Source of the DNA: a virus
Strand: one strand, 5' to 3'
IMG/VR virus record: IMGVR_UViG_3300020178_000670
Location: 1 to 42,026 of that record
Length of the DNA stretch: 42,026 nt
A program made the translations under genes and the position numbers. The notes under the pieces are model-generated. The model was not told the origin of the DNA. It was given only the letters and a program-made list of their open reading frames with translations, and did not search any database. Positions 2,845-39,316 of this stretch are shown here, one piece after another (position 1 is the stretch's first letter; every line of letters starts with the position of its first letter).

Positions 2845-3409
2845 TGTGTTCTCTTTCTATTATAAAATTAGATTTAGGTTGCCAGTTGTAGTCACCTTGT
2901 AATCTAATACTATAAACATACTGTAACATTGTACCTGTTTTAAACAAAAACTTTGTTTCTAATTTTAAATTTTTGTACCACTCTCCATTTATAAATTTTT
3001 TAAATGCAGTATCAGTCATCTTTCTTTTTCTTTGATATAGATTATTTATTGCTCTATTTTTAATGTCATGTGTAATGTAAAGTATCTTAAATCCTTTTTC
3101 TCTTGCCCACTTTATCTGGTGTTCAGCCATAATTAATCCACAATGAGTATGTCTATATTCTTTTAAGATATGATAACGACAAACTCGCACTGCTACAGTT
3201 GGATCGTTTGTATAGTGTGAACTTTCAGCAGCTGATATTGATATTAACTTATCATCTTTAAAACACATCCACGTTTCTATATTAGGATTATCAGGATTAT
3301 ATTTTTTATAAGTTATACTATTATTGCCTTCATTAAAAGTTTGTAATCTAAATCTCTCAATTAAAGGCCAATACTTATTAGGATTTTCTGAATATCTTTT
3401 TACTATCAT
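2804..3409 (-). CDS. GNAT-family acetyltransferase-like protein
   Basis: The 201-residue protein fits a GNAT fold. A central strand with VRVCRY leads to a YRHTHCG turn in the acetyl-CoA pyrophosphate loop region. A helix (MAEHQIKWAREKG) and a strand (KILYIT) follow, then a NLYQRK segment resembling the usual N-x-Y-x-K motif near the C-terminus of the fold. The pyrophosphate loop is degenerate compared with the usual R/QxxGxG/A. I use ATG at 3409, which overlaps the upstream stop as ATGA; a TTG at 3436 would add nine residues without a ribosome site. The acceptor is unknown. N-acylation of an amino sugar or amine made by the nearby aminotransferase is possible but is inference. Confidence 0.65.
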   Translation of the reverse strand: MIVKRYSENPNKYWPLIERFRLQTFNEGNNSITYKKYNPDNPNIETWMCFKDDKLISISAAESSHYTNDPTVAVRVCRYHILKEYRHTHCGLIMAEHQIKWAREKGFKILYITHDIKNRAINNLYQRKRKMTDTAFKKFINGEWYKNLKLETKFLFKTGTMLQYVYSIRLQGDYNWQPKSNFIIEREHNGEIIETQSTNNS

Positions 3410-17362: not shown

Positions 17363-18233
17363 TAAAGACTGGACAAGAAAAGAGTGGGAAGAGTGGTATA
17401 AAAAAACCATGTATTCATTTGATATTGAAAGACAAAGTGTATTAAATGCTCAAAAGTGTCAAAGAAATTGGGATAGAACAAGAAAAATATTACCAGAAGT
17501 AAGAGATCACTTTTTATGGTTAGCACAAAACGCTCCATCAAAACAATATGAAGCGTATTATGATGTATACTGGACTGATAATAAAGAAGTAATAGATGAA
17601 TGTTCTAACTATACATGGGGAAATACACATAGTAGAACACCACCATCTAATTGGAAAAATTCTCAACAAAGAGCTTCACTCTATATTTTATTTGTAGGAA
17701 AAGAACCAGAAACTCGATTAAATTGTAATGCAGATGGAACTTTAAAAGAAAATTCACACCATGAAAGATGGCTTAATGCTTACGTAAGTATAGGTATTGC
17801 AATGGGTTTAATTTTACAGTCTGCAAACAAATTAGGACTATCTACAGGATGTAATAAAAGTCATAATGACATAAACGGTGATGATTATTGGCCTAAAAGA
17901 TTAGGTATATTAGAAGATGTAGATAAAGGTAAAAAATTAATATCTTATGGCATTGGTATAGGGTTTCCTATAAAAGGTAAACCAAGATATTGGTCAGATC
18001 AAACTGAATTAATGATAGGTGCGGCTAACGGAAGTAAAATTACTACAACTAATATGGAAAAACATCCTAGAACTGGTCACTCTATGAGAAAAGTAAAAAT
18101 AGTTGATATTACAAAACACGCAGGAGAAACTATAGAGGATCCATATGGCAATTTTCATAAAATTCCAGATGAGTCTTTAACAAAAATAAATACACCAAGG
18201 ATAAGAAAAATTAATCTTATTGAAATAAAATGA
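17355..18233 (+). CDS. Second nitroreductase-like flavoprotein, longer form
   Basis: The 292-residue protein has the nitroreductase blocks QNAPSKQYEAYYDVYW (53-68; the APSxQ FMN-binding motif) and VSIGIAMGLILQSANKLGLSTGC (142-164; the interface helix and GL-TG-C turn), then YGIGIGFP. An N-terminal helical extension of about 35 residues (WTRKEWEEWYKK) and a C-terminal tail are extra compared with the usual 200-220 residues. AAAGGA stands eight bases before ATG 17355. It may use flavin reduced by the FMN reductase at 5870-6451, but that is inference. It is coupled by ATGA to the last gene of the operon. Confidence 0.75.
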   Translation: MSSKDWTRKEWEEWYKKTMYSFDIERQSVLNAQKCQRNWDRTRKILPEVRDHFLWLAQNAPSKQYEAYYDVYWTDNKEVIDECSNYTWGNTHSRTPPSNWKNSQQRASLYILFVGKEPETRLNCNADGTLKENSHHERWLNAYVSIGIAMGLILQSANKLGLSTGCNKSHNDINGDDYWPKRLGILEDVDKGKKLISYGIGIGFPIKGKPRYWSDQTELMIGAANGSKITTTNMEKHPRTGHSMRKVKIVDITKHAGETIEDPYGNFHKIPDESLTKINTPRIRKINLIEIK

Positions 18234-18814
18234 GAATAATTTGTTGTAGATTTGGTAATAAATTTACTCAATGGCATGTTGATAACTTAAAACACATGAT
18301 AGACGAATACTCTGGTCTAAAATATGATAGTTTTGAAGTTATTGAAGATGATCTATACGGCAATTGGTTTAACAAGTTTCAAATGTATGATAGATTTAGA
18401 GATAGTGAAAATTTATATTTTGATTTAGATGTAGTTATCTATGACAGACTTCCTAATCTTATAAGAAAAAACTTTACACTATTAGATGACACATGGTGGA
18501 GAGAACCAGCTCATACACCTTTAAATTCATCAATAGTATCTTGGACAGGTGATGTATCTTATATATGGAATAAGTTTAAAGAAAATGATAAAGAATATAT
18601 TAAAACATACACTAAAGGCAGTGATGAATGGTACTACAAAAATATAAAATATGAAACTTACGATAGAATATGTCCATCAATAAAAGATTATATTTATCAA
18701 AAACCACCACAGTTCAGTATATGTACACTTGGACAAATGCACCACTTACAAGAAGAAGGATGGACAGGTTGGTATTCTAATTATTTTTTATCTAAACACT
18801 CAAACGCAGCTTGA
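18230..18814 (+). CDS. Short GT-A-like protein with DxD, last gene of the plus operon
   Basis: The 194-residue protein starts MRIICCRFGNKF and carries D65-L-D67 in NLYFDLDVVIYD, the same context as in the two preceding GT-like proteins. It is the shortest of the three; the C-terminal acceptor part is reduced, with a Trp-rich stretch (DDTWWREP) after the DxD. The gene ends at 18814, where its last 34 bases overlap the end of the convergent minus-strand gene, so two messages run into each other here. No terminator hairpin is seen. The donor and acceptor are unknown. Confidence 0.65.
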   Translation: MRIICCRFGNKFTQWHVDNLKHMIDEYSGLKYDSFEVIEDDLYGNWFNKFQMYDRFRDSENLYFDLDVVIYDRLPNLIRKNFTLLDDTWWREPAHTPLNSSIVSWTGDVSYIWNKFKENDKEYIKTYTKGSDEWYYKNIKYETYDRICPSIKDYIYQKPPQFSICTLGQMHHLQEEGWTGWYSNYFLSKHSNAA

Positions 18815-38845: not shown

Positions 38846-38878
38846 CCCACCGTGGTTGAAATTCCACGGTGGGTTTTT
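38846..38878 (+). terminator. Rho-independent terminator
   Basis: A perfect ten-pair stem, CCCACCGTGG and CCACGGTGGG, with the loop TTGAAATT, is followed by TTTTT. It lies between the plus-strand gene ending at 38819 and the convergent gene ending at 38884. It can act on the plus strand; on the minus strand there is also a short A/T run. Confidence 0.9.
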
Positions 38879-38883
38879 CTTAT

Positions 38884-39081
38884 CTACCAATTATTTGTGG
38901 ATTTAACTGCCTTGTGTGCTAACACTTTACCTTTATTCGTACCGTGTTTAACAATATAGCCAGATGTTCCATTTGCATTTATATCAACTTCTTTTCTAGC
39001 ACCAAATAACACTTTTGTTTTTTCTAACAAAGTTTGTGCTTTGTGTCTAGTTTTGAATAAATGGGTGAATCTGTCCAACAT
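38884..39081 (-). CDS. Riboswitch-controlled 'downstream peptide', 65 aa
   Basis: The protein is basic, with a helical N-terminal half (LDRFTHLFKTRHKAQTLLEKTKVLFG) and a beta-like C-terminal half with Gly/Lys (NGTSGYIVKHGTNKGKVLAHKAVKSTNNW). ATG at 39081 has the strong ribosome site AAAGGAGGG five bases upstream. The mRNA leader is a glutamine-II riboswitch (39106-39152) and the promoter is a late octamer (39162-39169). The family name 'downstream peptide' refers to short peptides that follow such riboswitches in marine cyanobacteria and phages. In some cyanobacteria small glutamine-riboswitch-controlled proteins inhibit glutamine synthetase; whether this peptide does so is a guess. Confidence 0.8.
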   Translation of the reverse strand: MLDRFTHLFKTRHKAQTLLEKTKVLFGARKEVDINANGTSGYIVKHGTNKGKVLAHKAVKSTNNW

Positions 39082-39105
39082 AACACCCTCCTTTAGTTAA
39101 AGTTA

Positions 39106-39152
39106 GGTGCGTTCCTTCGGCATTGCCTACTTCCGTCCTTTTAGGATGAACG
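39106..39152 (-). ncRNA. Glutamine-II (downstream-peptide) riboswitch
   Basis: On the minus strand, CGTTCATCC at 39152-39144 pairs (CGTTC with GAACG, 39114-39110) around the strongly conserved core GGACGGAAGTAGG and the end GCCGAAGGAACGC. These blocks match the glutamine-II aptamer as I know it, with the closing stem, the AAGTAGG core and the CGAAGGAACG end. A CACC (39109-39106) is complementary to GGTG (39087-39084), which overlaps the ribosome site AGGAGGG, so ligand binding could hide the ribosome site through a pseudoknot. The aptamer starts nine bases after the late promoter octamer. Confidence 0.85.
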
Positions 39153-39160
39153 ATATAATA

Positions 39161-39316
39161 TTATTTATATGAGATATTGATCCAAGGATAACAGAATGCT
39201 GTTACTAGATGAATTGTATCGTGGACTAATTTCCATTCGCATTCCATCCATTCACACTCATAAGTGTATTCTTGGAAGTTACCTGCGTTGGGTTGCCAAT
39301 TTAAGTTGTATACCAT
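39161..39316 (-). CDS. Trp/Glu-rich microprotein, 51 aa
   Basis: The frame starts with ATG 39316 (AAAGGA ten bases upstream) and ends with TAA at 39161-39163. The product holds four Trp, three Cys and many Glu/Tyr (WQPNAGNF, EYTYECEWMECEWK, HLVTAFCYPW). Composition is not random for this AT-rich DNA. The late octamer for the riboswitch gene starts within its last codons. No family is recognised; the W/C pattern suggests a small globular or metal-binding peptide. The remaining short pieces of this 273-base region hold the riboswitch and promoter. Confidence 0.55.
   Translation of the reverse strand: MVYNLNWQPNAGNFQEYTYECEWMECEWKLVHDTIHLVTAFCYPWINISYK
39162..39169 (-). promoter_or_regulatory. 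Late promoter octamer driving the glutamine riboswitch
   Basis: It reads exactly TATAAATA on the minus strand and is followed nine bases later by the start of the riboswitch stem. It overlaps the stop codon of the 51-residue ORF. Confidence 0.75.

Follow-up and report, generated by a model that had tools for sequence, protein, structure and literature searches.

The gifB riboswitch of cyanobacteria, one of the closest described systems, resembles the locus reported here in its aptamer class (glutamine-I) and its short product. In the available sections of two papers (PMC11477058, PMC6698751), C1 and G59 of this aptamer form a P1 pair and C60 pairs with G23 on glutamine binding; a third, as far as its accessible text goes, has the type 2 glutamine riboswitch activate expression on glutamine binding, similarly to type 1 (PMC6316151). 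The glutamine-II class (RF01704) senses the same ligand through a shared core and, in the material available on it, also lies ahead of small peptides, but it has a pseudoknot architecture, unlike the aptamer described below. Phage examples are already published: Melnitz, Mosig and S-CREM1 carry glutamine riboswitches (PMC9004378, PMC9964418) of the same class as ours, in accounts whose available portions give neither a peptide target nor a switching logic. Parts of PMC9004378 interpret the Melnitz switch as controlling tmRNA, and speculate that it relates to lysis. According to the accessible text of PMC7029224, late promoters could not be predicted in pelagimyophages and no riboswitch turned up in a search; PMC9004378 subsequently described glutamine riboswitches in phages of this kind.

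What is new is a module of promoter, sensor, hairpin and peptide, found in the window (the whole 42,026-nt stretch of viral DNA analysed), a 42-kb virus record that may be a piece of a myophage genome. Its 613-aa baseplate protein is 70.3% identical to that of Pelagibacter phage Mosig, 54.8% to HTVC008M, 53.9% to OM43 phage Melnitz and 37–39% to the listed cyanophages. Because the nearest baseplate relatives are Pelagibacter myophages, the host, judged on this one protein, is probably SAR11 (Pelagibacter). The locus differs from gifB in this probable host, in the phage late-type promoter ahead of the aptamer and in a product without demonstrated kinship to IF17/DUF4278; from Melnitz, Mosig and S-CREM1 it differs in its peptide, and neither promoter coupling nor peptide appears in the available text on those phages. 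Here each component can be given a name—the promoter, the sensor, the switch hairpin and one peptide family common to SAR11 phages—and a small construct could test whether a phage times a late step by a host metabolite. Our model, to which we give slightly better than even credence, joins a late promoter, a glutamine-ON hairpin switch and a peptide acting as a late or lysis-phase effector licensed by glutamine.

A glutamine-I aptamer in a phage leader

The aptamer (39106–39154, minus strand) is a glutamine-I (glnA, RF01739) element, with a P1/P2/P3 three-way junction and the conserved core. Its score, 61.2 bits, clears the gathering score of 35 (E = 2.9e-11 for the window as a whole), and it aligns to the full model (1–53) with zero non-standard pairs. 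An earlier note on this DNA had assigned it to glutamine-II and proposed a covariance-model check; RF01704 reaches only 12.4 bits in the window, below its gathering score of 33, which rules out that class, and it is the glnA model that matches. Both core strings that the note had picked out on the minus strand are present. The cyanobacterial setting it had invoked is dropped because the class is glutamine-I/glnA, and the nearest relatives by baseplate protein are SAR11 phages. From its sequence, the window aptamer would bind glutamine.

Of 92 relatives, 80 were used; aptamer counts from both collection scans, and counts from one further search, are counts among the matches listed, not prevalences. 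Further glutamine-I aptamers (L203–L322), in tandem in several genomes, lie ahead of amt- and glnA-like genes in records of alphaproteobacteria (SAR11-type) and of 43–54-aa basic peptides in SAR86 records (gene names read by eye). These finds contrast with one review, the available part of which restricts glutamine riboswitches to cyanobacteria. Two relatives, L141 and L142, have an aptamer (within 230 nt before the peptide start, which is 5852 in L141) with an insert in the P3 loop, read as a hydrophobic ORF of 30 aa that starts and stops inside the P3 stem. In S-CREM1, too, the annotated glnA element has a long P3, and RF01739 does not detect it at the model cut-off.

Coupling to a late-type promoter

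An octamer of the T4 late-promoter type, TATAAATA, occupies 39162–39169 on the minus strand, overlapping the last codons and stop of an upstream 51-aa ORF (39161–39316). As had been noted before, nine bases follow (39153–39161), after which P1 (CGTTC) begins at 39152. The octamer is not enriched in the window (13 found, 12.9 expected); its placement is the distinguishing feature, 11 of the 13 copies lying 6–81 nt upstream of a same-strand start, for comparison with 150-nt upstream zones that make up 9.6% of strand-positions around a hand-picked gene list. Related leaders repeat the arrangement. Among 39 unique full leaders, 36 show a late-like octamer (TATAAATA, CATAAATA, GCTAAATA or ACTAAATA) 6–9 nt ahead of P1 and 38 show one at most 35 nt ahead (shuffled mean 3.2, maximum 10), counts that come from kin and are not independent events. 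Such pairing of promoter and aptamer occurs in 14/15 leaders of the window peptide family and 9/9 of a group encoding 76–78-aa peptides, and is rare in three other aptamer groups taken as controls (0/20, 2/20 and 2/12).

The sequence at 39169–39162 is thus probably a T4-type late promoter, and the earlier description of a glutamine riboswitch directly behind one stands as regards placement. It shares with promoters of that type an octamer before late genes; it differs in that the window transcript is predicted to start almost inside the aptamer. Under T4 late-promoter geometry, transcription would begin at about 39155–39157, putting the RNA start 3–5 nt before P1. Among 72 relatives of the upstream 51-aa ORF, ten have an aptamer within 230 nt behind them by pattern search, each followed by the window peptide family, and 62 do not. 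A full-text search of open-licence papers, within the text it exposes, returned no description of a glutamine riboswitch coupled to a late promoter.

A phage-borne family of small basic peptides

The product is a 65-aa peptide (gene P0001, phrog_32989; 38884–39081, minus strand) with pI 10.4 and a net charge of +9 by K/R/D/E count, which bears out the previous reading that the riboswitch leads a 65-codon gene for a small basic peptide (ORF 39081–38884). It is a real gene under purifying selection in close pairs: dN/dS is 0.15–0.48 for the eight closest pairs with L072, whose copy is identical to the window's. Over 967 pairs (dS 0.1–1.5, ungapped) the median is 0.32, with a quarter of pairs at 1 or above. 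The peptide matches phrog_32989 (E = 1.5e-10), as do all 72 aligned members; this profile has no assigned function and is 54 aa long, the window peptide having a longer C terminus.

No Pfam family matched the window peptide, and DUF7196 matches 5 of the 72 members (best E = 0.0023). We discarded the idea that VKHGTNKGK is KOW-like, because the motif glycine is replaced in many relatives and the 72 members together match 15 Pfam families without a KOW model among them. The structure model is weak (pLDDT 75.5, pTM 0.37), consisting of an N-terminal helix with the rest poorly defined; it has no significant fold match, 8p4c/8p4d (E = 8.3) being the only PDB fold hits. Profile hits to PDB entries (6tji 'Cake10' and others) were rejected, as they cover 15 residues of repeat proteins and repeats inflate the score.

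Searching with tblastn (E up to 10) gave relatives in 28 phage records. Pelagibacter phages account for 26, some genomes being entered twice; by names and taxonomy lines the records span podo-, sipho- and myo-types. All 12 fetched phage records were recovered by profile search as well. Host genomes returned none in one family search (0/110, among them the genome from a record with Pelagibacteraceae in its title) and none in a second set at E 0.001 (0/28), in which one match at E = 0.0094, in a search run at E 0.01, looked unrelated. The search control matched 4/4 pelagiphages known to have the peptide, and neither Mosig nor Melnitz. Across the sets searched, the family is phage-borne. Open-licence papers, in the text open to full-text search, yielded no published description of it.

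Among 112 peptide matches, the start pattern passed over 22 (relatives from phage records, fusions to SpeD, truncated ends and a number of divergent copies); by pattern, 56 of the remaining 90 have an aptamer and 34 do not, L141 and L142 being counted with the 34 despite the P3-insert aptamers that they carry. Many of the leaders without an aptamer (L152–L184) show a TATAAT-like box overlapping the palindrome TTAGGTTCACCTAA just before the Shine–Dalgarno sequence, perhaps a repressor operator. HTVC008M (L326, KC465899.1) has an unannotated peptide relative at about 18220–18384, whose frame appears shifted, with stop codons inside the match.

Genomic company and a second peptide in the same slot

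Baseplate genes flank the module in the window. Opposing genes lie in the path of the peptide mRNA, which is probably monocistronic; a strong hairpin (38846–38873) followed by a T-run, read by eye on the plus strand (38846–38880), is a probable terminator of the convergent plus-strand genes. Elsewhere the family keeps varied company. A script classed 57 distinct relatives as riboswitch-less, a class that includes L141 and leaders cut by a contig end (for example, L359). An endolysin or holin gene lies no more than 2.5 kb from 28 of these, and the other 29, many at short loci, have neither; an M15 endolysin (phrog_894) lies within that distance in 23, and a holin (phrog_3427) is directly upstream in five. 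Homologues of a 125-aa protein of L153 (phrog_20984), which is without known function and reads as one transmembrane segment plus a coiled coil, are found on the same strand at up to 2.5 kb in 28 of the 57.

Other relatives adjoin GroES or terminase (DNA maturase) genes, and in L402 one is flanked by what we read as portal-holin and scaffold-coat genes. L194–L196 and L411 carry the motif as a fusion with AdoMet decarboxylase (speD), and a speD gene is directly upstream of the peptide in L398 and L399. A peroxiredoxin-like gene follows the riboswitch–peptide module in L038, L024, L357, L368 and L370 (Redoxin model run on L038). The module is also present in a large phage (L186–L188; the L188 contig is 182 kb) whose helicase is nearest to those of jumbo phages (53–54% identity), and it therefore probably moves between phage lineages. 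A guess that the gene downstream of the peptide in L188 encodes a C-N hydrolase was abandoned, since neither Pfam nor PDB gave a match.

Mosig has a late-like octamer, an aptamer and a short basic ORF at a site syntenic to that of the window, and its riboswitch-led peptide is unrelated to the window peptide (no BLASTP match). The Mosig-type peptide occurs in four Pelagibacter phage records, none among the 28 with the window family. Its carrier L501 has an upstream gene 83% and a downstream gene 86% identical to window-family flanks in two contigs; in HTVC023P a 119-aa protein and then a peptidase M15 come after it. No aptamer was found within 150 nt upstream of the Mosig-type peptide in 17 metagenomic relatives. 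That one small basic peptide can stand in for another at this position suggests an equivalent job.

Candidate roles of the peptide

The reading that we favour, of a late or lysis-phase effector, is drawn from this company: about half of the riboswitch-less class lies near a holin or endolysin, and others lie near other late genes. The same neighbourhoods fit, without proving, the lysis idea of PMC9004378. Late structural or assembly protein ranks second and glutamine-synthetase inhibitor third.

That the peptide is a minor structural or assembly protein, its dose merely tuned by glutamine, strikes us as doubtful. The late promoter would suit such a part, as would the position between baseplate genes, the relatives beside GroES and terminase, and the portal–scaffold setting of L402; yet an unrelated peptide fills the same slot, which is unlikely for a part with fixed contacts, and the motif is also found fused to AdoMet decarboxylase.

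The earlier note had the peptide acting on host nitrogen metabolism. In its strongest form the peptide would be a phage counterpart of IF7/IF17, made when glutamine is plentiful, binding host glutamine synthetase and shutting it down. On the available text of PMC7760959 and PMC6316151, IF7 is likewise 65 aa long, positive charges abound in both IF7 and IF17, and a glutamine-I switch controls IF17; in cyanobacteria and SAR86 as well, glutamine switches lie ahead of short peptides; and host glnA, gltBD and amt transcripts rise in two pelagiphage infections, according to the accessible part of PMC12753301. Comparison of the family profile with five IF-like peptides, picked by eye from cyanobacterial loci, nevertheless gave a probability of 0.5% (E = 0.13), and in a separate run its score was reached by 1 of 30 column shuffles, which is suggestive, not significant; IF7/IF17 sequence homology is set aside on this result. 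With 28 of the 57 relatives classed riboswitch-less near lysis genes as well, we regard inhibition of glutamine synthetase as unlikely and the broader nitrogen-metabolism claim as weak.

The late or lysis-phase effector reading extends to a tentative generalization, which we hold well short of even: SAR11 phages would have a host-specific class of interchangeable small basic late or lysis effectors, the large ones under the late-promoter/glutamine-ON module, with glutamine licensing the last step of infection.

A hairpin from C60 over the ribosome-binding site

Immediately after the GAACG of P1 comes C60 (39109, minus strand, in the published numbering), the first base of an anti-Shine–Dalgarno arm. 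The expression-platform hairpin (39084–39109, minus strand), drawn from folding and leader alignments, pairs CACCU (39109–39105) with GGGUG (39088–39084) and CUUU (39102–39099) with AAAG (39094–39091), covering the Shine–Dalgarno sequence GGAGGG. The complementarity of CACC (39109–39106) to GGTG (39087–39084) had been pointed out before and is confirmed, as is the strong ribosome site (GGAGGG at 39091–39086, ATG at 39081–39079, minus strand). Folded alone the hairpin has −9.1 kcal/mol, against −6.6 without C60, and in the predicted free state the Shine–Dalgarno sequence is hidden by the arm that overlaps the aptamer.

Minimum-energy folds from C60 to the start codon were compared for 121 unique platforms of phages and cells, a set made up of leaders with a start and Shine–Dalgarno sequence within 75 nt, most SAR11-type glnA/amt leaders thus falling outside it. 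C60 is paired in 29/29 platforms of the window peptide family and throughout four other phage groups (8/8, 5/5, 3/3 and 9/9). Cell leaders agree (6/6 SAR86-type, 22/25 YRG-type and 13/16 other), the YRG-type count showing that in cyanobacterial leaders, too, the anti-Shine–Dalgarno arm mostly begins at C60; phage YRG-type leaders pair it in only 5/20. Platform sequences vary between groups (CACCU/GGGUG, CAUCUUUC/GGAGGGUG, CGCCUC/GAGGCG), which means that the pairing itself is kept. Across 27 leaders (25 of 37 unique leaders plus L010 and Melnitz), 94.2% of cells in the 9-pair hairpin are paired and 12 cells have changed on both sides, against a shuffled mean of 4.0 and a total reached by 0 of 500 shuffles. 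The two outer pairs are invariant; the innermost is open in 10 of 26 leaders.

That most other glutamine-switch groups keep the C60 pairing in different sequences suggests that glutamine turns translation ON, as in cyanobacterial gifB, and we infer this direction for the window switch, where it is well motivated. A dedicated message from the late promoter would carry the glutamine-I aptamer at its 5′ end or a few bases in. As long as glutamine is absent, the stretch from C60 onwards would form the hairpin over the ribosome-binding site; with glutamine bound, C60 would be drawn into the aptamer and P1 locked, depriving the hairpin of its closing pairs. The weakened hairpin would then allow more translation. 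Within the text reached by a full-text search of open-licence papers, no published description of this platform in phages was found.

It is rather improbable that the switch works the other way, with glutamine cutting translation, or acts through termination or RNA decay. Glutamine-I aptamers do precede SAR11-type glnA- and amt-like genes, where repression by glutamine would make sense, and a constrained fold with P1 forced and C60 unpaired gave no release of the Shine–Dalgarno sequence, its G's re-pairing with CACCC in the coding region. Yet the hairpin begins at C60, the very base withdrawn by ligand binding, and the SAR11-type amt- and glnA-like start codons lie about 60–160 nt beyond the aptamer, whereas the window start adjoins it instead. 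Inspection by eye shows no T-run downstream of the hairpin and hence no intrinsic terminator. That the riboswitch is a functionless relic in this phage we consider very improbable, for although the data are sequences and many peptide relatives do without a riboswitch, aptamer and hairpin together keep 94.9% of cells paired in the 27 leaders; both sides have changed in 56 cells (shuffled mean 16.8), there is covariation within P2 and within P3, and the core is invariant.

The Melnitz element

Among the relatives aligned, Melnitz (L003, MZ577097.1) has its aptamer at 2999–3047, behind the tmRNA body (Rfam alpha_tmRNA, 2574–2991). No tmRNA precedes the 31–51-aa peptide group as it does in Melnitz (0/16 loci, ARAGORN). 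ARAGORN extends the Melnitz tmRNA into the aptamer, which lies directly before an anti-Shine–Dalgarno hairpin and an unannotated 32-aa basic ORF (from about 3069). On this arrangement, the published reading of the Melnitz switch as controlling tmRNA may be wrong.
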